From the NCBI RefSeq assembly GCF_004342065.1, contig NZ_SLZU01000001.1:682001-746000 (forward strand): DNA of 64,000 nucleotides. The letters run 5' to 3'. The notes beneath the pieces were generated by a model. That model ran no database searches. It had not been told where the DNA came from and worked only from the letters and a program-made list of their open reading frames with translations. A program made the translations under genes and the position numbers. This document shows, in pieces, positions 46,997 to 58,558 of the stretch; positions within the stretch are counted from its first letter, which is position 1, and every line of letters starts with the position of its first letter. This DNA comes from Primorskyibacter sedentarius. GTDB lineage: Bacteria; Pseudomonadota; Alphaproteobacteria; Rhodobacterales; Rhodobacteraceae.

Positions 46997-48088
46997 TCAG
47001 ACCTCCACAGCCTTGCCGGTGCTTGCAGACAATTGCGCAGCAAGCCCAAGTCGCACGGCCATGTGCCCATCCTCTGCGGTGACCTCTGGCGCCGCTTTGC
47101 CCAGCACCGCGTCACGGAACCGCACATGCTGATAGTAGGTAGAGCCGTTGTGATCCCCCGCCTCCAGCAATTCCGGGTCGACCGGGATATCCAGCACCAT
47201 CGGCCCCTTGGGGTTGCGCGGACTGACGATCAGCTGGGGCACAGGCGGATCGCCAAGATCAGCAGGCCAGAACCGTCCGGGACCGGGCACAAGGCATTCG
47301 ATCTTGCCCGCAGGACCGACGGCCGAGATTTCCTCCTGATACCTGCTGCCTTCGGCGAACATGCACAGTTCCAGCATGGCGCGGGCGCCGTTGGCGAATT
47401 CCACGATGACATAGCCATGGTCCCATATGTCCGGCGTCTCGCCGCCATAGCTTTCATCAAGATGATTGGCCGCCTGCCCCGCACTGGCCATGACGCGCAC
47501 CGGTTCTGACGGGATCACCAGCCGCATCAAATCAAAGAAATGACAGCATTTTTCCACGAAGGTCCCGCCAGAGTAGCGATTGAACCGGTTCCAGTCGCCG
47601 ACCTTCTTGAGGAAGGCAAACCGATGTTCGCGGATCGTCAGCATCCGCACGCCGCCGGTTGCCATATCCGCCTGTTCCAGCAGCGCCGCGATGGGCGGCA
47701 TGTAGCGATATTCCATCGCCACCCAGATCGGTGCCGGGTAGGCCGCGCAAATCTCCGTCACACGATCCGCATCGGCGGGATTGGTGAACAAAGGCTTCTC
47801 TATCAGCAATGGCAGGGGGCGTTTGGCCGCGATCATCTCCAGTTGCGGGATATGCAGATGGTTGGGAGAGGCGATCAACAGGCAATCCAGCCCCTCGACC
47901 TCCAGCAGATCCTCGGCGGTTTCGGGCAGCACCGCATCCGGAGCAATCGCCGCTGCGGCTTCGCGCATCGCGCGGTCCGGCTCGAAGATGGCGCCGACGC
48001 GGGCGCCGGGCACAAGGGCGATGTTGCGCAGATGTTCCTGCCCCATCATGCCGCAGCCGATGATGCCATAGGTGACGGTGTCTTTCAT
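46997..48088 (-). CDS. Gfo/Idh/MocA-family NAD(P)-dependent oxidoreductase
   Basis: 363 aa. A Rossmann domain (TYGIIGCGMMGQEH) is followed by the family lysine motif IEKPLF and the C-terminal alpha/beta substrate domain. YRYMPPIAALL and GGTFVEKCCHFFDLMRL carry likely active-site His/Asp residues. Such enzymes oxidise or reduce sugars, inositols and sugar acids. GGCAGGAAG before ATG 48088 decides this start over an ATG five codons upstream. It follows the GntR gene, whose stop lies 12 bases upstream of this start, and is divergent from the monooxygenase operon. It may therefore act on the same substrate class. Confidence 0.9.
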   Translation of the reverse strand: MKDTVTYGIIGCGMMGQEHLRNIALVPGARVGAIFEPDRAMREAAAAIAPDAVLPETAEDLLEVEGLDCLLIASPNHLHIPQLEMIAAKRPLPLLIEKPLFTNPADADRVTEICAAYPAPIWVAMEYRYMPPIAALLEQADMATGGVRMLTIREHRFAFLKKVGDWNRFNRYSGGTFVEKCCHFFDLMRLVIPSEPVRVMASAGQAANHLDESYGGETPDIWDHGYVIVEFANGARAMLELCMFAEGSRYQEEISAVGPAGKIECLVPGPGRFWPADLGDPPVPQLIVSPRNPKGPMVLDIPVDPELLEAGDHNGSTYYQHVRFRDAVLGKAAPEVTAEDGHMAVRLGLAAQLSASTGKAVEV

Positions 48089-48099
48089 GCTTCCTGCCT

Positions 48100-48801
48100 T
48101 CATTTCAGCCGCGCTACGTAGCGCGCCACATTCGTATCTATCCAACTGCGCGACACCTCGACCCGCGCGCCGTCCTTGCCCCAACTGATCCGGTCGATCA
48201 GGACACAAGGGCTGGCCTCAGCCATGCCAAATTCGGGCGGGGCCCAGTCGGGCACCTGACCAAGGCTCACCTTGTCCTCGGCGCGTGTGATCCACAGGCC
48301 CAGCGTTTGGCGGTAGTAAAGGTAGAGCGACTCTGACAGGTCCTGCGCCGCGATCCGCCCGGCAAAGCTGCCATCAAGCCAGATTTCCTCCAGCACTGCC
48401 GGGATGCCGTCCAGCCTGCGCAGGCGGCGGATGCGATGCGCCTCTGGCGAGGTGCCAAAATCCGGCAGGTCATCCGGTTTGCTGACCCGGGCCACGTCCA
48501 GCACATCCGCCGTCGGCAACCCGCCCCCGCGCAGCCGTTCGACCCGGAAAAACGTGTAGACGCTCTGCGTATCGGCCCGCGCGCGAATGTAGTTGCCCGA
48601 CCCCTGCACGCGTTCCAGCATCCCCTTCGATGTCAGGTCTGCCAGAGCCTTGCGCAATGTGCCCACAGAGATTTCAAGCGTCGCTGCCATGTCCCGCTCT
48701 GGCGGCAGGCGCTCACCGTCCAGATAGCGGCCCGCGTTGATCTCGCGGATCAGCATTTCGCTGATCTGGATATAGAGCGGCAGGGCATTCTGGTTGGTCA
48801 T
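48100..48801 (-). CDS. GntR/HutC-family transcription regulator
   Basis: 233 aa. An N-terminal winged helix (LPLYIQISEMLIREINAGRY ... LPPERDMAATLEISVGTLRKALADLTSKGMLERVQGSGNYI) precedes a UTRA ligand-binding domain (about 75-230). HutC-type repressors release DNA when a pathway metabolite binds. It faces the monooxygenase/TRAP operon across about 100 bases and precedes the Gfo/Idh gene. It most likely regulates both, and itself. The ligand is unknown but should be the imported substrate or a product. Confidence 0.9.
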   Translation of the reverse strand: MTNQNALPLYIQISEMLIREINAGRYLDGERLPPERDMAATLEISVGTLRKALADLTSKGMLERVQGSGNYIRARADTQSVYTFFRVERLRGGGLPTADVLDVARVSKPDDLPDFGTSPEAHRIRRLRRLDGIPAVLEEIWLDGSFAGRIAAQDLSESLYLYYRQTLGLWITRAEDKVSLGQVPDWAPPEFGMAEASPCVLIDRISWGKDGARVEVSRSWIDTNVARYVARLK

Positions 48802-48829
48802 CGAGCGGGTCCGGCGCGGGCGAAGAATA

Positions 48830-48846
48830 ATTGATACACTATTGAT
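48830..48846. promoter_or_regulatory. Direct ATTGAT repeats in the divergent control region
   Basis: ATTGAT occurs at 48830-48835 and 48841-48846, 11 bases apart (one helical turn), in the AT-rich core of the gap between the GntR gene and the monooxygenase operon. It could be the regulator's binding site or promoter sequence. There is no palindrome of the usual GntR type. Confidence 0.3.
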
Positions 48847-48900
48847 CTACATTAAAGCCGGTGCTACGCAAGACAAAATGACGCATGCCGGAGCCTGCCC

Positions 48901-50055
48901 ATGACCGTGGTCCCTATCACCTCTCCTGATCTTGACGCGGCCGAAGTGTCGTGGTTCGCGGCGCTCTGCTCGGATGACTACGAATACCTTGGTGTCCCCG
49001 AAGGGCGCCTGCGATCATCATGGGCGCATTGTTCATCCATCGTGAAAGAGGCCGAGGCACAGGGCTTTCGCAACATCCTGTGCCCGTCGTCCTATCAGGT
49101 GGGTCAGGACACGCTCAGCTTCGTGGCAGGTTGCGCGCCCATCACCGACAGGATCAACATGCTGGCCGCTGTGCGCTGCGGCGAAATGCAGCCCATCATG
49201 CTGGCCCGCACCATCGCCACGCTGGATCACATGCTGGAGGGGCGGCTGACGGTGAATATCATCTCGTCCGATTTCCCCGGCGAGAAGGCGGAAAGCAAAT
49301 TCCGCTACCAGCGGTCGCGCGAAGTGGTCGAGATCCTGAAACAGGCATGGACGCAGGACGAGATCACCTACAAGGGCGATGTCTATGACTTTCAGGGGCT
49401 GTGGACCGATCCGGCCAAACCCTACCAGACTGGCGGGCCGCTGCTTTATTTCGGCGGCTATTCGCCCGATGCGCTGGAGCTGTGCGGCCAGCATTGCGAC
49501 GTCTACCTGATGTGGCCAGAGGCCAAGGACGCGCTGGCCGAACGGATGAAGGCCGTGCATGCCGTGGCGCAAAGATACGACCGCACGCTGGATTATGGCC
49601 TGCGCGTGCATGTCATCGTGCGCGACACAGAGGCCGAGGCCCGTGAATGGGCGCAGCATATCGTCAGCCAGCTGGACGACGATCAGGGCCGCGCGATTCG
49701 TGAACGCTCTCTGGACGCCACCAGCCTTGGTGTGTCGCATCAGGCCAGGAACCGCGAACTGGCCGACATGGAGGGCTTTATCGAGCCGCATCTGTGGACC
49801 GGCGTGGGCCGTGCGCGCTCTGGCTGCGGGGCTGCGTTGGTGGGTTCAACCGATCAGGTTCTGTCCGAACTGGAGCAATACCAGAAGATGGGCATCCGCG
49901 CTTTCATCCTGTCGGGCTATCCGCATCTCGACGAATGCCGCCATTTCGGTCAAAAGGTGCTTCCGCAGATGAAGACATGTTCGCTGCCCGAAGCCTACGG
50001 CCGCGTGCCGCAGGGCCAGCCGAACACCCCCCTTGCCGCAGGAGAGCGCCGCTGA
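48901..50055 (+). CDS. SsuD-like FMNH2-dependent monooxygenase
   Basis: 384 aa luciferase-like monooxygenase closest in pattern to alkanesulfonate monooxygenase SsuD (381 aa). Conserved counterparts of SsuD active-site residues are R235 and H237 (GLRVHVIVRD, SsuD R226/H228), R306 (GVGRARSGCGAALVG, SsuD R297) and Y340 (LSGYPHLDE, SsuD Y331). The cysteine equivalent to C54 is absent; the region reads PSSYQVGQD. It would use reduced FMN and oxygen to split a C-S bond, releasing sulfite, if the sulfonate assignment is right. It starts the plus-strand operon, and its stop overlaps the aldo-keto reductase start (TGATG). Confidence 0.85.
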   Translation: MTVVPITSPDLDAAEVSWFAALCSDDYEYLGVPEGRLRSSWAHCSSIVKEAEAQGFRNILCPSSYQVGQDTLSFVAGCAPITDRINMLAAVRCGEMQPIMLARTIATLDHMLEGRLTVNIISSDFPGEKAESKFRYQRSREVVEILKQAWTQDEITYKGDVYDFQGLWTDPAKPYQTGGPLLYFGGYSPDALELCGQHCDVYLMWPEAKDALAERMKAVHAVAQRYDRTLDYGLRVHVIVRDTEAEAREWAQHIVSQLDDDQGRAIRERSLDATSLGVSHQARNRELADMEGFIEPHLWTGVGRARSGCGAALVGSTDQVLSELEQYQKMGIRAFILSGYPHLDECRHFGQKVLPQMKTCSLPEAYGRVPQGQPNTPLAAGERR

Positions 50056-50942
50056 TGGACCGTATCCAGATTACCCCGGGACTTGATTTCAGCCGTATCG
50101 TCTATGGCATGTGGCGCCTTGGCGACGATGACAATACCGCGCCGGAGCATGTGCAGGCCAAGATTTCCGCCTGCCTTGATCAGGGCATCACGACGATGGA
50201 TCAGGCCGACATCTATGGCGGCTACATGGCCGAAGAGATCCTTGGCAACGCGCTGACACCTGATTTGCGCAACAAGATCGAGATTGTCACGAAATGCGAT
50301 ATCGTGGCCCCTGCGGGCCGCTACGACAAGGCGCGCGTCAAGCATTACGACACCAGCCGAGCGCATATCCTTGCCTCTGTCGAACATTCGCTGCGCTTGA
50401 TGAAAACAGACCGGATTGACCTGCTGCTGATCCACCGGCCCGATCCTTTCATGGATCACCACGAAACGGGCGCCGCGCTGGACGAGGTGGTGGCCGCGGG
50501 CAAGGTCCGCGCCGTGGGTGTGTCCAATTTCCGCCCCTGGGACTGGACCCTGCTGCAATCGGCGATGAAGACCCCGCTCTCCACCAACCAGATCGAGCTT
50601 AGCCTGATGACGCATGACGCCTTTACCAATGGCGACATCGCGTTCTTGCAGGAACGCGGCATCCCGCCGATGGCGTGGTCGCCGCTTGGTGGTGGCACGC
50701 TTTTTGCCAGCAGCCGCGAGGATCTGCGCAAAGAGCTCAAGAAAGTCGGCGAAGAACACGGCGTTGATGCCGCCGCGGTTGCCGTCGCGTGGCTCTTGGC
50801 ACATCCCGCCCGCATCCTACCTGTCCTCGGCACCAACAATCTGGACCGTATCGCCCGTATCGGCGATGCTGCTAAGTTAAAGATGGATAGGGAGACCTGG
50901 TTTGAGATCTACACCCACGCAATCGGCCACGAAGTCGCCTGA
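50055..50942 (+). CDS. YdhF-like aldo-keto reductase
   Basis: 295 aa TIM-barrel oxidoreductase. The catalytic tetrad is D49, Y54, K80 and H127 (MDQADIYGG, VTKC, LIHRPDP). The rest matches E. coli YdhF closely in pattern. It would reduce an aldehyde with NADPH. In the sulfo-SMO pathway, an aldo-keto reductase reduces the 6-oxo-glucose released by the monooxygenase, and a similar role is possible here. It is translationally coupled to the monooxygenase gene, and the flavin reductase gene starts three bases after its stop. Confidence 0.88.
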   Translation: MDRIQITPGLDFSRIVYGMWRLGDDDNTAPEHVQAKISACLDQGITTMDQADIYGGYMAEEILGNALTPDLRNKIEIVTKCDIVAPAGRYDKARVKHYDTSRAHILASVEHSLRLMKTDRIDLLLIHRPDPFMDHHETGAALDEVVAAGKVRAVGVSNFRPWDWTLLQSAMKTPLSTNQIELSLMTHDAFTNGDIAFLQERGIPPMAWSPLGGGTLFASSREDLRKELKKVGEEHGVDAAAVAVAWLLAHPARILPVLGTNNLDRIARIGDAAKLKMDRETWFEIYTHAIGHEVA

Positions 50943-50945
50943 GAC

Positions 50946-51461
50946 ATGTCACTGATGACGGCAGAGCCTCACAGCTTCGACCCCGCGACCGAGGATCCGC
51001 GCAGCTTCCGCGCCGCCTTGGGCAATTTCGCAACGGGTGTCACCGTGATTACCTGCCAATCCGGCAGCGGCCCGATCGGCATCACGGCCAACAGCTTCGC
51101 CAGCCTGTCGCTGAACCCGCCGCTGGTTCTCTGGGCGCCTGCGAAAAGCTCTCAGCGCTACCCGTTCTACATGGCGGCAGAGCATTTCGCGATCCATGTC
51201 ATGAGCGCCGAGCAGACGGATATCTGCTCTGGCTTCGCGCGCAATGGCGACGTCTTCGATGCCTTCGACTGGGAGGAAGGCAGCCATGGCGTGCCGCTGA
51301 TCAACGGGTGCCTGTCCCGGTTCGAATGCACGCGAACCGCACAGCATGATGGCGGCGACCATTCCATTATCGTGGCCCGCGTGACGCGCGTCACGACCCG
51401 GCCCGGCAAACCGCTGACCTTTTTCGCCGGAAAATACGGAGCCATAGAAAAAGTGTCGTAA
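50946..51461 (+). CDS. Flavin reductase (FMN) domain protein
   Basis: 171 aa single-domain flavin reductase of the HpaC/NTA-reductase type. The family start is FRAALGNFATGVTVITCQSG, the FMN-binding loop GITANSFASLSLNPPLVLW, and the end FFAGKYG. It probably supplies reduced FMN to the SsuD-like enzyme two genes upstream; two-component monooxygenases need such a partner. It lies between the reductase and the TRAP transporter genes. Confidence 0.9.
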   Translation: MSLMTAEPHSFDPATEDPRSFRAALGNFATGVTVITCQSGSGPIGITANSFASLSLNPPLVLWAPAKSSQRYPFYMAAEHFAIHVMSAEQTDICSGFARNGDVFDAFDWEEGSHGVPLINGCLSRFECTRTAQHDGGDHSIIVARVTRVTTRPGKPLTFFAGKYGAIEKVS

Positions 51462-51511
51462 TTCGCCGCCATAGAAAAAACAGTAGCGCGGCGCAGGGAG
51501 GAGAAGACCGT

Positions 51512-52099
51512 ATGGCGATATTGAAGGGGCTGCTGGCTCCGCTGCAATTCGTCAACACGCATGTGTTGCGCCTTGGCCGGGCGATCGCCGTCTTTGCCAT
51601 GGCGATCATGGTCCTGTCGATCCTCTATCAGGTCGTGATGCGCTATGGTTTCAACGCCGCCCCCAACTGGTCCGAAGAACTGGCGCGCTTCTGCATGCTT
51701 TGGATGACGGGGCTTGTTGCGCCCGCCGCCTACCGCCGGGGCGGCTTCGTGGCCATCGACACGCTCACGATGTTGCTGCCCAGAAACATCGGTGCGGTTC
51801 TCAACTTCGTTCTTCTGGCATTGGCCCTTCTGGTCCTCGTCGTCGCGCTGCAACTGGGGCTGAAGCATGTCAATTCCGGCTGGTTGTTCGCGTCATCCTC
51901 GCTTCGCCTGCCGCTGGACCTGATCGGCATGGCGCCGGTGAAGCTGAAGCTCGCCTGGATGTTCATGTCTCTTTATGTGGGCGTCATCCTGCTGACCTCT
52001 GTCACCGTGGAACTGCTGCTCAGACAGCTTGTGCGCCTGACCGGGGGCGGGGATGACCTGCCGCCGCTACCAACACTCGACACGCCGGGGGCTGAATAG
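51512..52099 (+). CDS. dctQ: TRAP transporter small permease DctQ
   Basis: 195 aa with four transmembrane helices, as usual for the small TRAP subunit. Family marks are YQVVMRYGFNAAPNWSEELARFCMLWMTGLVAPAAYRRGGFVAID. It assembles with DctM for sodium-driven uptake. GGGAGG precedes the ATG. The TAG stop abuts the dctM ATG. Confidence 0.93.
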   Translation: MAILKGLLAPLQFVNTHVLRLGRAIAVFAMAIMVLSILYQVVMRYGFNAAPNWSEELARFCMLWMTGLVAPAAYRRGGFVAIDTLTMLLPRNIGAVLNFVLLALALLVLVVALQLGLKHVNSGWLFASSSLRLPLDLIGMAPVKLKLAWMFMSLYVGVILLTSVTVELLLRQLVRLTGGGDDLPPLPTLDTPGAE

Positions 52100-53389
52100 A
52101 TGCTTATCTGGTTTCTGCCGCTTTTCCTTGTCTTCCTGATGATCGGCCTGCCGGTCTTCTTTGGCCTTCTTGCCGCACCGGGCATCCTGCTTTGGATGAA
52201 CGGGCAAGAGCGTGACGTCGCCCTGCTATACCGCAATGTCTACAACGGCATGGACAGCTTCCCGCTGATGGCCATCCCGTTCTTCATGCTGGCGGGCGAA
52301 TTGATGAATCGCGGCGGCATCACCATGCGCCTTGTGGAGTTCAGCCAGGCGATGATGGGCCACCTGCGCGGTGGGCTGGCACATGTGAACGTGCTCAGCT
52401 CCATGCTGTTCGCGGGCCTGTCGGGATCAGCGGTTGCGGATACGTCGGCGCTGGGGTCCATGCTGATCCCCGCGATGGAGAAACAGGGCTATAGCCGCAA
52501 ATTCGCCGCCGCGATCACGGCCGCCAGTTCCGTCATCGGGCCGATCATCCCCCCCTCGGGCATCATGATCATCTATGCCTATGTCATGGGTGAAAGCGTC
52601 GCGGCGCTGTTTCTCGCGGGTATCGTGCCGGGCATCCTTGTCGGGGCCGGGCTGATGGTAATGGTCAAGGTCATGGCCGACAAATACGACTTCCCCGTCG
52701 CCACGCGCAAACACACATGGCCAGAGCGTGGACAGGCGAGCCTCAAGGCCTTCTTTCCTCTGCTGACGCCCGTGATCATCCTGGGCGGCATTTTGGGCGG
52801 CATCTTTACCCCGACCGAAGCGGCGGCGGTGGCCGTCGCCTATGCCACTATCGTGGGGCTCTTCATCCTGCGCACGCTGCGGTTTCGGGATCTGCCAGAG
52901 GTGCTGTCGAACTCTGCCATGACCAGCGCCGTTGTGCTGCTGCTGGTGGGCGCCGCGATGGCGTTCAAGACAGTCGTCAGCCTCAGCCACGCGCCAGAGC
53001 AACTGGCAGCCTTCATCCTTGCGCTTTCGGACAACCCGCTGATCCTGCTGTTCCTGATCAACCTGCTGCTGTTTATCGTCGGCATGTTCCTTGATGCGGG
53101 CCCCGCGATCATCATCCTTGGCCCGATCCTGGGCCCGATCTTTGTCAGCCTCGGCGTCGACCCGGTGCATTTCGCGATCATCATGTCCGTCAACCTGACC
53201 GTGGGGCTGGCCACCCCGCCGATGGGGCTGGTGCTGTTCGTCGCCTCGTCCGTATCGGGCGAACGGGTCGAAAAGATCGCCCGTGCGATCCTGCCATTCC
53301 TTGCGGTAGAGGTGGTGGTGATCTTCCTGATCACCTACATCCCCGCGATTTCAATGACGATTCCGCGCCTGACGGGGTTCGTCAACTAA
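52100..53389 (+). CDS. dctM: TRAP transporter large permease DctM
   Basis: 429 aa with about eleven to twelve helices. Typical motifs are IPFFMLAGELMNRGGIT, HVNVLSSMLFAGLSGSAVADTSALGSMLIP and ASSVIGPIIPPSGIMIIYAY. The central SGSAVADTSA and PPS motifs line the transport path. It starts directly after dctQ and is followed by dctP after 54 bases. Confidence 0.94.
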   Translation: MLIWFLPLFLVFLMIGLPVFFGLLAAPGILLWMNGQERDVALLYRNVYNGMDSFPLMAIPFFMLAGELMNRGGITMRLVEFSQAMMGHLRGGLAHVNVLSSMLFAGLSGSAVADTSALGSMLIPAMEKQGYSRKFAAAITAASSVIGPIIPPSGIMIIYAYVMGESVAALFLAGIVPGILVGAGLMVMVKVMADKYDFPVATRKHTWPERGQASLKAFFPLLTPVIILGGILGGIFTPTEAAAVAVAYATIVGLFILRTLRFRDLPEVLSNSAMTSAVVLLLVGAAMAFKTVVSLSHAPEQLAAFILALSDNPLILLFLINLLLFIVGMFLDAGPAIIILGPILGPIFVSLGVDPVHFAIIMSVNLTVGLATPPMGLVLFVASSVSGERVEKIARAILPFLAVEVVVIFLITYIPAISMTIPRLTGFVN

Positions 53390-53443
53390 CCCGGGCGCCT
53401 TGCCCGGTCATCGACCAAGAACGAAGCATTAGGGAGGTTATAC

Positions 53444-54502
53444 ATGCTCAAGGGTCTTACAACGGCGGCACTGTCCGCGGCACTTCTGGCGGGCGGCACA
53501 CTCGCCGCAAGCGCGCAGGAATACACCATTCGCGCCACTGCCAATTCCAACGAGAATGACGAGGATTACGACGGGCTCGTGGTCTTCAAGAACTATGTCG
53601 AAGCCGCCTCCAACGGCCAGATCGGCGTCGAGATGTTCATCGGCACGCAGCTGTGCTCCAATGGCACGGAATGCCTGCAAGGCATCGCTGATGGGTCGAT
53701 CGACGTCTACATCTCTACTTCTGGTGGCGCGGCGGGGATCTTTCCCTATGTGCAGGTGCTGGACCTGCCCTACCTGATGGCCGACGACCGCGTTGCCGAA
53801 ACAGTGCTGCAAGGTGATTTTGTCCGGACCATGCGCGACATGGCGCTCGAGGATTCAAACGGCATGATCCGCCTGATGACCATCGGCAATACCGGCGGAT
53901 GGCGCAATTTCGCCAACACCAAGCGCCGGGTACAGATGCCTGCCGATATGGAAGGCCTGAAGATCCGTACCGTGGTCGCCGATCTGCCGCAGGAACTGGT
54001 CAAGGCGCTTGGCGCGTCGCCCACCCCGATCCCGTGGCCGGAACTGTTCACCAGCTTCCAGACCGGCGTGGTCGAGGGATCCAAGAACGGCATTACCGAC
54101 ATCATGGGCATGAAATTCCCCGATGCCGGCCTGCAATATGTCACGCTGGACGGGCATGCCTATATGGGTGCGCTGTGGTTCATGAACAACGACAAGTTCA
54201 TGTCCATGCCCGAAGAGCTGCGCCGCGTTGTCGTGGACGGGTTCTACCAGTTGCAACAGGCGACATTCGCGTCACCCAAGCGCAAGTCGATCCAGGCATA
54301 TGAGGACTTCGTGGCCGGTGGCGGCGATCTTTACGTCCCCACGCCCGAGGAAAAGGAAGCGTTCAAGGAAGCTGCAGCCCCGGTCTATGACTGGTTCAAG
54401 ACCAATGTCGATGGTGGCGAGGAAATCTTCACCGCCCTGACAGAGGCGGTTGCCGCAGCCGAGGCCGAAATCAACGAAGGCCGCGCGAAGGATCTTCAGT
54501 AA
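53444..54502 (+). CDS. dctP: TRAP transporter substrate-binding protein DctP
   Basis: 352 aa with a signal peptide ending at ASAQE. DctP family marks are AADLPYLM-type (VLDLPYLMADDR), MEGLKIRTVVADLPQELVKALGASPTPIPWPELFTSFQTGVVEGSKN and HAYMGALWFMNNDKF. The Arg in GLKIRT sits where TRAP binding proteins salt-bridge a substrate carboxylate or other acidic group. A negatively charged substrate (acid or sulfonate) is therefore likely. Strong AGGGAGG precedes the ATG. A terminator hairpin follows. Confidence 0.93.
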   Translation: MLKGLTTAALSAALLAGGTLAASAQEYTIRATANSNENDEDYDGLVVFKNYVEAASNGQIGVEMFIGTQLCSNGTECLQGIADGSIDVYISTSGGAAGIFPYVQVLDLPYLMADDRVAETVLQGDFVRTMRDMALEDSNGMIRLMTIGNTGGWRNFANTKRRVQMPADMEGLKIRTVVADLPQELVKALGASPTPIPWPELFTSFQTGVVEGSKNGITDIMGMKFPDAGLQYVTLDGHAYMGALWFMNNDKFMSMPEELRRVVVDGFYQLQQATFASPKRKSIQAYEDFVAGGGDLYVPTPEEKEAFKEAAAPVYDWFKTNVDGGEEIFTALTEAVAAAEAEINEGRAKDLQ

Positions 54503-54506
54503 TAGT

Positions 54507-54539
54507 GATGCCGGGGCCGCTCAATTCGGCCCCGGCATC
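54507..54539 (+). terminator. Hairpin terminator of the TRAP operon
   Basis: GATGCCGGGGCCG (54507-54519) pairs perfectly with CGGCCCCGGCATC (54527-54539), seven-base loop, five bases after the dctP stop. No T-run follows. Confidence 0.75.
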
Positions 54540-54646
54540 GTACCGATCCGGTTCGGGTTCCCTCCCAAGAACCCGGTCACCGGGTCGGCACCCATCGGCG
54601 CTGCGTCAGGCGTCACACTCACCACCCCACGACAGCGCCGGACCTC

Positions 54647-55033
54647 TCAGATGGACTGCAATGCCGCTGCCAGAGTTTCTGACGTGAATGGCAGCTCCAG
54701 CTCAATTGGCTGAATACCGAACGCTTCCCATTCGGACGGGTCGCAATCGACCAGAACAACCGACGCACCGCGCGCGACAAGGCGGCTGGCCAGCGCGCCA
54801 CTGCGAACATGCATCCCCGGACCGATCACCAGAAGGACCGAGCAAGCGCCCTGCGCCTCGATCTCCGCCTCGGTGGATCCAAGTCCGTGCGCCATGTGGA
54901 CGGCAGCACCAGGAAACACCTCTCTGAGCGTTTCTACGGCGTCGATCTGAATAACCGGGTCGCGACAAACCACGCCGAATTGGCGGGCGCCGACAGTGGG
55001 CTTTTCAACTGTGATCAACATACGGACTCCCAT
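54647..55033 (-). CDS. Small protein resembling the C-terminal half of sirtuins
   Basis: 128 aa. The stretch ACSVLLVIGPGMHVRSGALASRLVARGASVVLVDCDP resembles the NAD-site LFLVIGTSxxVxPA...A....GA.VIxIN region of sirtuin deacylases. No N-terminal sirtuin motifs (GAGxS, catalytic His, zinc cysteines) are present, and I see no remnant of them downstream. It may be a truncated or unrelated Rossmann-like protein. ATG is at 55033 (or 55021). It is divergent from a Crp/Fnr gene across 69 bases, so the two may be co-regulated. Confidence 0.55.
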   Translation of the reverse strand: MGVRMLITVEKPTVGARQFGVVCRDPVIQIDAVETLREVFPGAAVHMAHGLGSTEAEIEAQGACSVLLVIGPGMHVRSGALASRLVARGASVVLVDCDPSEWEAFGIQPIELELPFTSETLAAALQSI

Positions 55034-56776: not shown

Positions 56777-57265
56777 TTACCGAAACGGGTACATCCATAC
56801 GCGATAATCCTCGATCAGTGTGTTGGCATGTTCGATTTCGTCCGGCGTCATCTTCTTGATAACCTCTTCCTGACTGATCGCCGCGTCGGGGTCGCCACCG
56901 ATGGCCGAAAGCACGTACCACATATAGGCGCGGGTAAGGTCGGGAGCAGGCATGCCAAGGCCGACCTCGTAATACCAGCCGATGCCGGATTGCGCGCCGG
57001 GATGCCCCTTCAGGGCGCTGCGCAGATACCACTCGAAGGCCCGTACGTGGTCCTGCTCCACGCCCAGCCCCAGCGCATACATCACGCCGATCAGCTCTTC
57101 GGCATCTGCATTGCCGGACCGGGCGGCGGGCCAAAGCGCCGCGCGCGCTTGCTCGAAGCGGCTGGCCTCCATCAGATCGCGCGCCTCTTCAATATCGGCC
57201 GCAGCCGGGGGGCCAATCGTGCCCAGCATAAGCGCCAGAGCGGCAAGCTGATATCGCGGCTTCAT
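56777..57265 (-). CDS. Sel1-repeat periplasmic protein
   Basis: 162 aa. A signal peptide (LAALALMLGTIGPPAAADIEE) is followed by two to three Sel1-like repeats (NADAEELIGVMYALGLGVEQDHVRAFEWYLRSALKGHPGAQSGIGWYYEVGLGM). Sel1 repeats form helical solenoids that bind partner proteins. The start at 57265 is the ATG that begins the signal peptide. Its first 18 bases overlap the most plausible start of the divergent di-heme peroxidase gene. Confidence 0.82.
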   Translation of the reverse strand: MKPRYQLAALALMLGTIGPPAAADIEEARDLMEASRFEQARAALWPAARSGNADAEELIGVMYALGLGVEQDHVRAFEWYLRSALKGHPGAQSGIGWYYEVGLGMPAPDLTRAYMWYVLSAIGGDPDAAISQEEVIKKMTPDEIEHANTLIEDYRVWMYPFR

Positions 57266-58558
57266 TGCTTTCTGGCCCTCCTCTGCCTGACCACATCGCC
57301 GCTGGCGGCGCAATCGGTTGACCCGGATGATTTCCTGTCCTTCGACCCGGCGCAAGCCCGCATCGGCCAAATGCTGTTCTATGACAAGATCCTGAGCGGC
57401 AACCGCAATATCAGCTGCGGCACCTGCCACCATCACGACCATGCAGGCGGGGATGGGCTGAGCCTTGGCATTGGCGAAGGGGGCGAGGGCGTCGGCCCAA
57501 TGCGCACGCCCGGCAGCGGTGCCGACCGTATTGCGAAACGCATTCCCCGCAATGCCCCGGCCCTTTGGAATCTGGGCCACAGATCGGTCACGACACTGTT
57601 TCACGACGGGCGGCTAGCCGTGTCGGATCTTTACGGCAACGGTTTCAATTCCCCTGCGGAGGAATGGCTGCCGCAAGGGCTGAACAATATCCTCGCTGCG
57701 CAGGCGCTGTTCCCGATGACGTCTCAGTTTGAGATGGCGGGCAACCCGCGCGAGAACGAGATCGCGGGCGCCGTGCATGACCGGATTGATGCGGCCTGGC
57801 CGATCCTTGCCAAACGTGTGCGCATCATTCCCGAATATGCAGCGCTTTTTGTCGAGGCCTTTGACGATGTGGAAAACCCCGAGGATGTCAGCATTGTCCA
57901 TGTCGCCAATGCGCTTGCCGCCTTTATCGGGACCGAGTGGCAAAGCCATGACAGCCCTTACGATGATTGGGTGGCCTCTGGCACGCCCCTGCCCGCACAG
58001 GCCGAGCTTGGGCGGCAACTTTTCTTCGGTAAGGCCAATTGCAGCAGGTGCCATAACGGCCCGCTTCTGACAGATCACGACTTTCACGCCATGGGGCTGC
58101 CCGCCTTTGGCCCCGGCCGCACCCGGCGGTTTGATCCGATGCCGCGTGACGTGGGCCGCATGGGCAAGACGGACGCGCTGGAAGATGCCTACCGGTTCCG
58201 CACGCCCTCGCTGCGCAATGTCGCGCTGACCGCGCCATACGGGCATAATGGCGCCTATCCCACTCTGGCCGATATGATCCGGCACATGGCAGATCCTGTC
58301 AGTGCGCGGTCTGCCTGGACCCCGACGATGGCCCGCCTGCCCGCTGCGCCCTGGCTTGAGGCGTCCGACTTTGTGATCCGGGCGGACCGGCTTGAAATGG
58401 CCCGTCAGACTCGCATGCTTGATGCAGAGCCCGTGATACTGACAGATGAAGAGGTCGCGCAGATCGAGGCGTTCCTGCACGCGCTGACCGGCCGAACCGC
58501 CATGACGCGGCCTTTGGGGCGGCCTGATCGCGTGCCAAGCGGGTTGCCGGTTGACTGA
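57248..58558 (+). CDS. Di-heme cytochrome c peroxidase / MauG-family protein
   Basis: About 436 aa from a CTG at 57248. A signal peptide-like segment (LHCFLALLCLTTSPLAAQ) is followed by two heme-binding motifs, CGTCHHHD (about 57-61) and CSRCHNG about 210 residues later. Other marks are APALWNLG and FRTPSLRNVALTAPYGHNG, typical of the CcpA/MauG family, which reduces peroxide or modifies proteins in the periplasm. No ATG, GTG or TTG in frame precedes the signal segment plausibly. The start is therefore uncertain, and any reading overlaps the Sel1 gene's 5' end. Function beyond the family is open. Confidence 0.82.
   Translation: MISRLHCFLALLCLTTSPLAAQSVDPDDFLSFDPAQARIGQMLFYDKILSGNRNISCGTCHHHDHAGGDGLSLGIGEGGEGVGPMRTPGSGADRIAKRIPRNAPALWNLGHRSVTTLFHDGRLAVSDLYGNGFNSPAEEWLPQGLNNILAAQALFPMTSQFEMAGNPRENEIAGAVHDRIDAAWPILAKRVRIIPEYAALFVEAFDDVENPEDVSIVHVANALAAFIGTEWQSHDSPYDDWVASGTPLPAQAELGRQLFFGKANCSRCHNGPLLTDHDFHAMGLPAFGPGRTRRFDPMPRDVGRMGKTDALEDAYRFRTPSLRNVALTAPYGHNGAYPTLADMIRHMADPVSARSAWTPTMARLPAAPWLEASDFVIRADRLEMARQTRMLDAEPVILTDEEVAQIEAFLHALTGRTAMTRPLGRPDRVPSGLPVD

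Follow-up and report, generated by a model that had tools for sequence, protein, structure and literature searches.

Eight genes at positions 46997-54502 of a 64,000-nucleotide stretch (hereafter the window; G000:C1:682001-746000 of a 5.07-Mb genome) form the candidate sulfoquinovose (SQ) utilization operon described here. Judged by its relatives, the source genome appears to be a member of the roseobacter/Rhodobacteraceae group, and the closest named relatives of its monooxygenase include those of Marivita, Puniceibacterium and Allosediminivita (88-90%). An earlier note on this DNA had assigned the eight genes to protein families, and Pfam recovers every one of these assignments with small corrections to gene starts: the Gfo/Idh/MocA gene most likely begins with the ATG at 48088 rather than with the TTG of the longest open reading frame, and the aldo-keto reductase gene begins with an ATG at 50055 that overlaps the monooxygenase stop codon by 1 base. 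The genes, their predicted products and the basis of each prediction are as follows.

46997..48088, minus strand: sqgA, sulfoquinovosidase dependent on nicotinamide adenine dinucleotide (NAD+), of glycoside hydrolase family 188 (GH188) with a Gfo/Idh/MocA fold (PDB matches, conserved residues)
48100..48801, minus strand: GntR/HutC-type regulator with a UTRA ligand domain (PF00392 and PF07702)
48901..50055, plus strand: smoC, SQ monooxygenase dependent on reduced flavin mononucleotide (FMNH2), for C-S cleavage (PDB matches, identity, tree)
50055..50942, plus strand: smoB, aldo-keto reductase, 6-dehydroglucose to glucose (PDB matches)
50946..51461, plus strand: smoA, flavin reductase supplying FMNH2 (PF01613)
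51512..52099, plus strand: dctQ, small permease of a tripartite ATP-independent periplasmic (TRAP) transporter (PF04290)
52100..53389, plus strand: dctM, TRAP large permease (PF06808)
53444..54502, plus strand: dctP, TRAP solute-binding protein, proposed receptor for SQ or an SQ-glycoside (PF03480)

The earlier note had proposed oxygenolytic desulfonation by the enzymes of the sulfoquinovose monooxygenase (sulfo-SMO or sulfo-ASMO) pathway, in which SQ yields sulfite and 6-dehydroglucose, and the latter is reduced to glucose (PMC12890257, PMC9594981). Agrobacterium tumefaciens likewise combines a flavin reductase, an SQ monooxygenase and an aldo-keto reductase for this purpose (PMC12890257, PMC9594981). 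Database matches, and for SmoC also identities and a tree, support the assignment of SmoC, SmoB and SmoA as a sulfo-SMO set that would convert SQ to sulfite and glucose. Along its whole length SmoC matches 7olf (E 1e-206) and 7oh2 (E 9e-206) in the PDB, while MsuD and SsuD chains reach E 2e-54 and E 1e-52; the protein is 77% identical to 7olf and 76% to 7oh2 over 384 residues, but 32% to each of E. coli SsuD and MsuD. We take 7olf and 7oh2 to be SQ monooxygenases (SmoC), and 7bby and 7bbz to be SmoB; no relevant literature was found that names these codes. SmoB matches 7bby and 7bbz at E 1e-130, with 4r9o next at E 5e-68. SmoA scores 212 bits with the NCBIfam model FerA, under the cut-off of 260, and its PF01613 match is a family-level assignment.

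On a quick tree of 43 sequences, SmoC sits with 7olf and 7oh2, away from E. coli SsuD and MsuD and not with non-sulfonate luciferase-like enzymes, the latter being a placement that the earlier note had named as telling against its proposal. Two of the five luciferase paralogues of the source genome were placed on this tree, whose root is unsure because the branches to RutA and to own-genome paralogues are very long. The four residues previously listed as conserved (R235, H237, R306 and Y340) are indeed present, as is W205, and they align with the same residues of 7olf. One might instead read the genes as a general system of the SsuD/MsuD kind that scavenges alkanesulfonates or methanesulfonate for sulfur rather than carbon, given that the top NCBIfam names for SmoC are alkanesulfonate monooxygenase models and that 7olf is labelled 'methanesulfonate sulfonatase' in the PDB. 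However, the bit scores lie far under the cut-offs (233.6 against an equivalog cut-off of 518.2 for SsuD, TIGR03565, which was rejected as an assignment, and 228.7 against 510 for PRK00719). The placement and identities given above also disfavour this reading, and the neighbouring genes encode a GH188 sulfoquinovosidase and a sugar-aldehyde reductase with no SsuABC transporter, such that we consider sulfur scavenging very improbable. SfnG (TIGR04021; 157.5 bits, cut-off 382.95) and RutA (TIGR03612; 56 bits, cut-off 498.3) were also rejected as assignments for SmoC.

The Gfo/Idh/MocA protein was previously thought to replace or add a step in the pathway. Structure matches and residue conservation indicate instead that it is a GH188 SqgA, the predicted entry glycosidase, with no extra redox step. 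Its best PDB matches are 8zn9 (E 2e-162) and the SqgA structures 8qc3 (E 2e-111) and 8qc2 (E 5e-110). The catalytic and SQ-contacting residues K107, Y136, E189, H193 and H321 of ArSqgA correspond to K98, Y127, E179, H183 and H313 of the window protein, and the sulfonate-binding residues R166, L170 and K172 to R156, L160 and K162 (residue roles from PMC10755693). E163 of ArSqgA (PMC10755693) is not placed by the same offset, and a neighbouring glutamate, E154 of the window protein, is invariant together with the eight residues just listed in all 160 aligned SqgA sequences (at least 200 bits and 280 residues; 125 from sulfo-SMO loci including the window, 21 of the Embden-Meyerhof-Parnas or sulfo-EMP type described below, nine of a 50% group, three from SMO remnants and two others). 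From these residues and from homology, we infer that SqgA cleaves glycosides with catalytic NAD+. An inositol-type dehydrogenase that contributes a redox step would be in keeping with the family-level Pfam match and with weak matches to iolG, but the inositol dehydrogenase model scores 97 bits against a cut-off of 355 and was rejected, whereas the SqgA structures match at E 5e-110 or better and all placed sulfonate-binding and catalytic residues are kept; this identity is hardly tenable.

The sulfoquinovosidase of Agrobacterium is of the GH31 type. No GH31 family match was found in the source genome by a search whose control was positive in 6 of 14 named genomes. This result agrees with the complementary occurrence of GH188 and GH31 reported in PMC10755693. 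Agrobacterium also differs from the window in its transporter, an ATP-binding cassette (ABC) importer of SQ-glycerol that accompanies its own sulfoquinovosidase (PMC9594981), whereas the window combines a TRAP system with SqgA. The combination of sulfo-SMO enzymes with GH188 is the common Roseobacter form and has already been published (Kaur et al. 2023, PMC10755693), and thus the pathway itself is not new; nor is the SqgA part, because the same source describes GH188 as almost always present in the sulfo-SMO clusters of Roseobacters.

Relatives of SmoC (E <= 1e-80) occur in 166 of 394 genomes of the family and in 21 of 385 genomes of the class. We compared 140 loci (80 named, 40 from the more distant half of the family matches favouring good assemblies, and 20 more; repeated species are included), counting genes by tblastn from ~7 kb before to ~9 kb after smoC. 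At the 129 loci where SmoC is at least 70% identical, the neighbourhood includes SqgA in 124, SmoB in 125, SmoA in 113 and GntR in 127, and the TRAP is complete in 86, partial at a contig end in four, absent in 33 and undetermined in six. Of the 86 complete-TRAP loci, 83 have all eight genes in the order and orientation of the window, which argues that the arrangement is not due to chance; the loci L026, L135 and L181 retain the complete TRAP and lack one to three of SqgA, SmoB and SmoA in the stretch covered. The same order is annotated in Ruegeria TM1040, Paracoccus seriniphilus and Rhizobium SL42 on plasmids.

DctP, DctQ and DctM all score above their Pfam cut-offs. Across the 86 complete loci, conservation of DctP (median identity 82%) and DctM (87%) is on a level with that of SmoC (82%), and the DctP orthologue is absent genome-wide from 12 of 12 smo genomes that lack the TRAP (one has a 34% match) and present in 4 of 4 TRAP-bearing controls. 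Among the 394 genomes, 111 carry both DctP and SmoC, 33 DctP only, 55 SmoC only and 195 neither; these genome-scale scans scored at most the best four to five candidates per genome, and their absences are slightly less sure than those of the 12-genome search, which scored all candidates. The DctP proteins at 31 of the 33 DctP-only loci are orthologues with at least 66% identity (those of L276 and L277 are ~50% identical) and stand well apart from the nearest DctP paralogue of the source genome, which is 29% identical and one of 27 family matches there.

At 21 of these 33 loci, DctP is accompanied by an SQ-isomerase homologue, a PfkB kinase, a LacD-type aldolase and SqgA, a gene set of the sulfo-EMP or EMP2 type. 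These clusters resemble the window in their orthologous DctQMP and in an SqgA with the same catalytic residues, and differ in carrying the isomerase, kinase and aldolase with mostly a DeoR regulator (19 of 21) where the window has SmoCBA and GntR; 13 of the 21 also have a mutarotase or an aldehyde dehydrogenase in the stretch. Their aldolase is nearer to 8tnf and to tagatose-bisphosphate aldolases than to YihT, and the isomerase and aldolase occur together in none of the 140 smo loci. A further six of the 33 loci retain other SMO genes. Separately, L255 keeps SqgA, GntR and the TRAP with no smoC seen, and L263 does likewise with no smoC, smoB or smoA seen. DctP orthologues thus occur mostly with SQ genes rather than with genes for ordinary carboxylates; a DctP that binds ordinary carboxylates alone was the other outcome that the earlier note had named as telling against its proposal. 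Given that SQ or its glycoside is the obvious small molecule common to the sulfo-SMO and sulfo-EMP clusters, the importer seems to follow this molecule rather than one pathway, and would constitute a substrate-specific module that relatives have reused with a sulfo-EMP-type SQ pathway. In a quick tree built from 122 DctP rows, the best topology requires the SMO/EMP label to switch at least 11 times.

We consider it highly probable (approximately 0.87) that the window carries an operon for the complete use of SQ, mainly as the SQ-glycerol that is left after delipidation of the photosynthetic sulfolipid. The earlier note had given the exact substrate as unknown, and enzyme and locus comparison now make SQ and its glycosides the most likely choice. 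In the mechanism we propose, DctP would bind the sulfonated sugar in the periplasmic space for import by DctQM, whereupon cytoplasmic, NAD+-dependent SqgA would release SQ and the aglycone from an SQ-glycoside. Following C-S cleavage, SmoB would reduce 6-dehydroglucose to glucose, which a glucokinase present elsewhere in the source genome could phosphorylate. SqgA starts straight into its Rossmann fold with no export signal evident by sequence, and for this reason, together with its use of NAD+, the glycoside is tentatively favoured over free SQ as the imported form.

Several observations weigh against this reading or against parts of it. Six of the 33 SmoC-less DctP loci have neither the full sulfo-EMP set nor an SMO gene: L258 and L277 carry SqgA with the isomerase and the kinase, a contig end truncates L281 and L283, L276 has only a generic PfkB-kinase match, and L253 has no SQ gene. 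At 252 bits, the SQ isomerase homologue falls short of its model's cut-off of 700, and many branches of the DctP tree are weak, the starred branches alone forcing five changes for SMO and three for EMP. The PDB molecule names of 7olf, 7oh2, 7bby and 7bbz are methanesulfonate sulfonatase, alkanesulfonate monooxygenase and aryl-alcohol dehydrogenase. The putative sulfate exporter family PF03601 is absent from the source genome, and sulfite disposal was not seen in the cluster. Lastly, the TRAP is not essential to the pathway, because 33 of the 129 SmoC loci do without it.

The last observation would also be expected if the enzymes degrade SQ while the TRAP carries another co-occurring algal compound, such as a sugar acid or a C3 sulfonate, with SQ taking another route into the cell. 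A relative of the Marinovum binding protein is found in 10 of the 43 loci without a full TRAP, and some of these have sugar-type ABC transporters instead; TRAP proteins are described as usually binding carboxylates (PMC4646407), and sulfolactate is the proposed cargo of a TRAP in Taurinivorans (PMC10507020). The locus L253 (genome G014) points the same way, in that it has an orthologous TRAP with no SQ gene in 18 kb. In this locus, the dihaem/Sel1 gene pair described below is still present; the cluster may have been disrupted, or the importer may serve another purpose here. Against a different cargo stand the position of the TRAP inside both the smo operon and the sulfo-EMP-type clusters, whose obvious common molecule is SQ or its glycoside, the comparable conservation of DctP, DctM and SmoC, and the absence of DctP from all 12 of the TRAP-less SmoC genomes searched. 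We judge a different cargo unlikely, and retain SQ or its glycoside as the preferred ligand.

The importer shares the DctP/DctQ/DctM architecture of the sialic-acid TRAP SiaPQM, of the isethionate-binding DctP 8t9t and of the proposed sulfolactate transporter DctPQM2 of Taurinivorans (PMC10507020), and differs from these in being proposed to bind a sulfonated hexose or a glycoside of it. A phmmer comparison matches DctP to 8t9t at E 3e-27. The candidate equivalent of the ligand-anchoring SiaP Arg147 is R154 in a WRN motif, which is invariant in 28 of 28 aligned sequences and kept in at least 98% of 117 orthologues. The AlphaFold model of DctP, with a mean predicted local distance difference test score of 63.7, is too poor for reading the pocket. 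Two cysteines, C71 and C77, are kept in at least 98% of the 117 orthologues and possibly form a disulfide. DctM is ~60 residues longer in L018, L023, L026 and L246 (491 versus 429 amino acids in the window), and is also annotated so in Ruegeria TM1040.

The region between the divergent gntR and smoC genes carries two conserved elements.

48829..48846, strand not assigned: operator-like element AATTGATACACTATTGAT, two TTGAT boxes 11 bp apart (intergenic conservation)
48842..48870, plus strand: predicted smoC promoter with a -35 element TTGATC (48842-48847), a 17-bp spacer and an extended -10 element TGCTACGCA (48862-48870) (footprint)

These were examined in 124 gntR-smoC intergenic regions, from the window and 123 of the 129 loci, six having been set aside because a gene match was absent or incomplete or the gap had an unusual length. 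The two TTGAT boxes are exactly 11 bp apart in 119 regions and 12 bp apart in one. The second box opens a -35-like TTGATN, with a -10 element of the TACGCA type exactly 17 bp further on in 93 of the 124; no other -35/-10 spacing between 14 and 20 bp occurred, and the figure after mononucleotide shuffling was 0.15 of 124. Because the loci are homologous, these counts reflect conservation and not independent origins. The operator and promoter (48829-48870) end 30 bp before the smoC start, and a plain sigma-70 consensus scan did not list the smoC promoter.

With one mismatch allowed, the paired element occurs once in the source genome. It was found in 18 of 19 genomes, at 49-89 bp before smoC in 17 and ~0.7 kb before it in one (G127); the same search gave two extra one-mismatch sites elsewhere, and a reversed-pattern control gave one. 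The element looks like a private operator, with one regulator and one target, and the GntR protein is probably a local repressor. It would occupy the two TTGAT boxes, which overlap the -35 element, until SQ or a derivative releases it.

A possible operon end follows dctP.

54507..54539, plus strand: 13-bp perfect inverted repeat with no T tract (sequence)

The region 54500-54660 folds with a z score of -6.35, and a second strong hairpin is predicted beyond this repeat.

SQ production is estimated at ~10 billion tons per year (PMC10755693), and Roseobacters degrade SQ at sea, with the entry transporter of their clusters unnamed in the literature found. The available text of Kaur et al. 2023 (PMC10755693) mentions neither a TRAP nor an operator, and the TRAP genes may well be drawn in its gene-cluster figure. 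A literature search for an SQ TRAP found no such paper among the matches listed, the remainder being judged by title or the start of the abstract, which is not proof of absence; in the accessible portions of PMC11659671, PMC6278857, PMC11968277 and PMC12421959, 'trap' refers to ion traps, trap columns or trapping. The importer assignment and the operator, both supported by sequence comparison, appear to be the new parts, the chemistry being known. If the assignment is correct, the substrate range of TRAP transporters, which are described as serving mainly carboxylates (PMC4646407), would extend to a sulfonated sugar. Moreover, a TRAP common to two pathways makes for a clean, testable ligand prediction, and the DctP sequence group and the operator could be used to trace the uptake of SQ-glycosides across marine genomes and metagenomes.

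Other forms of the smo locus were also encountered. The cluster of Marinovum algicola has an ABC sugar transporter in place of the TRAP, and by eye the TRAP-less loci L017, L028, L035 and L150 have ABC-sugar-transporter-like genes and a GH13-like glucosidase nearby; the binding proteins of two ABC-bearing clusters gave no informative PDB match. A second SmoC group, 49-52% identical, accounts for 12 of the 21 positive genomes of the class and includes a Novosphingobium relative, whose cluster has an alpha-glucosidase, LacI, an aldo-keto reductase and glycerol genes. Relatives of SmoC are found on 29 plasmid records, of which 25 are typed as non-mobilizable and several are Roseobacter-group plasmids. 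A putative sulfate exporter lies downstream of the cluster in TM1040 and SL42, and the source genome has three matches to the molybdopterin oxidoreductase family.

Two further genes of the window lie downstream of the operon.

56777..57265, minus strand: Sel1/TPR-repeat protein, TRAP-associated neighbour (PF08238)
57335..58558, plus strand: MauG-like protein of the dihaem cytochrome c peroxidase family, TRAP-associated (PF03150, two CXXCH motifs)

Relatives of the TM1040 copy of Sel1 are found in 56 of the 86 TRAP loci and in none of the 43 other SmoC loci, and the dihaem protein is found in the same 56 TRAP loci and in one of the 43; the value of 56 is a lower bound, since some stretches end early. 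Among 112 genomes with the dihaem protein (at least 55% identity), 105 also have DctP, and the protein occurs in 27 of the 33 DctP-only genomes but in only 5 of the 55 SmoC genomes without DctP. In its distribution, the pair follows the importer and not C-S cleavage. A tree-corrected test of 74 genomes had only six independent pairs on starred branches (median p 0.25), and with so few pairs the raw association may partly reflect shared descent.

A more ambitious view is that DctPQM is the first recognised TRAP for a sulfosugar glycoside, a fixed uptake module with which two unrelated catabolic cores (sulfo-SMO and sulfo-EMP) have been swapped repeatedly, and that the MauG-like dihaem protein and Sel1 are a further fixed component in sulfosugar capture. 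We offer this view tentatively and regard it, as a whole, as rather doubtful on present sequence comparisons. The Sel1 and dihaem genes are divergent and their 5' ends apparently overlap; 57335 is a candidate start for the dihaem gene, and a stretch resembling a secretion signal begins further upstream.

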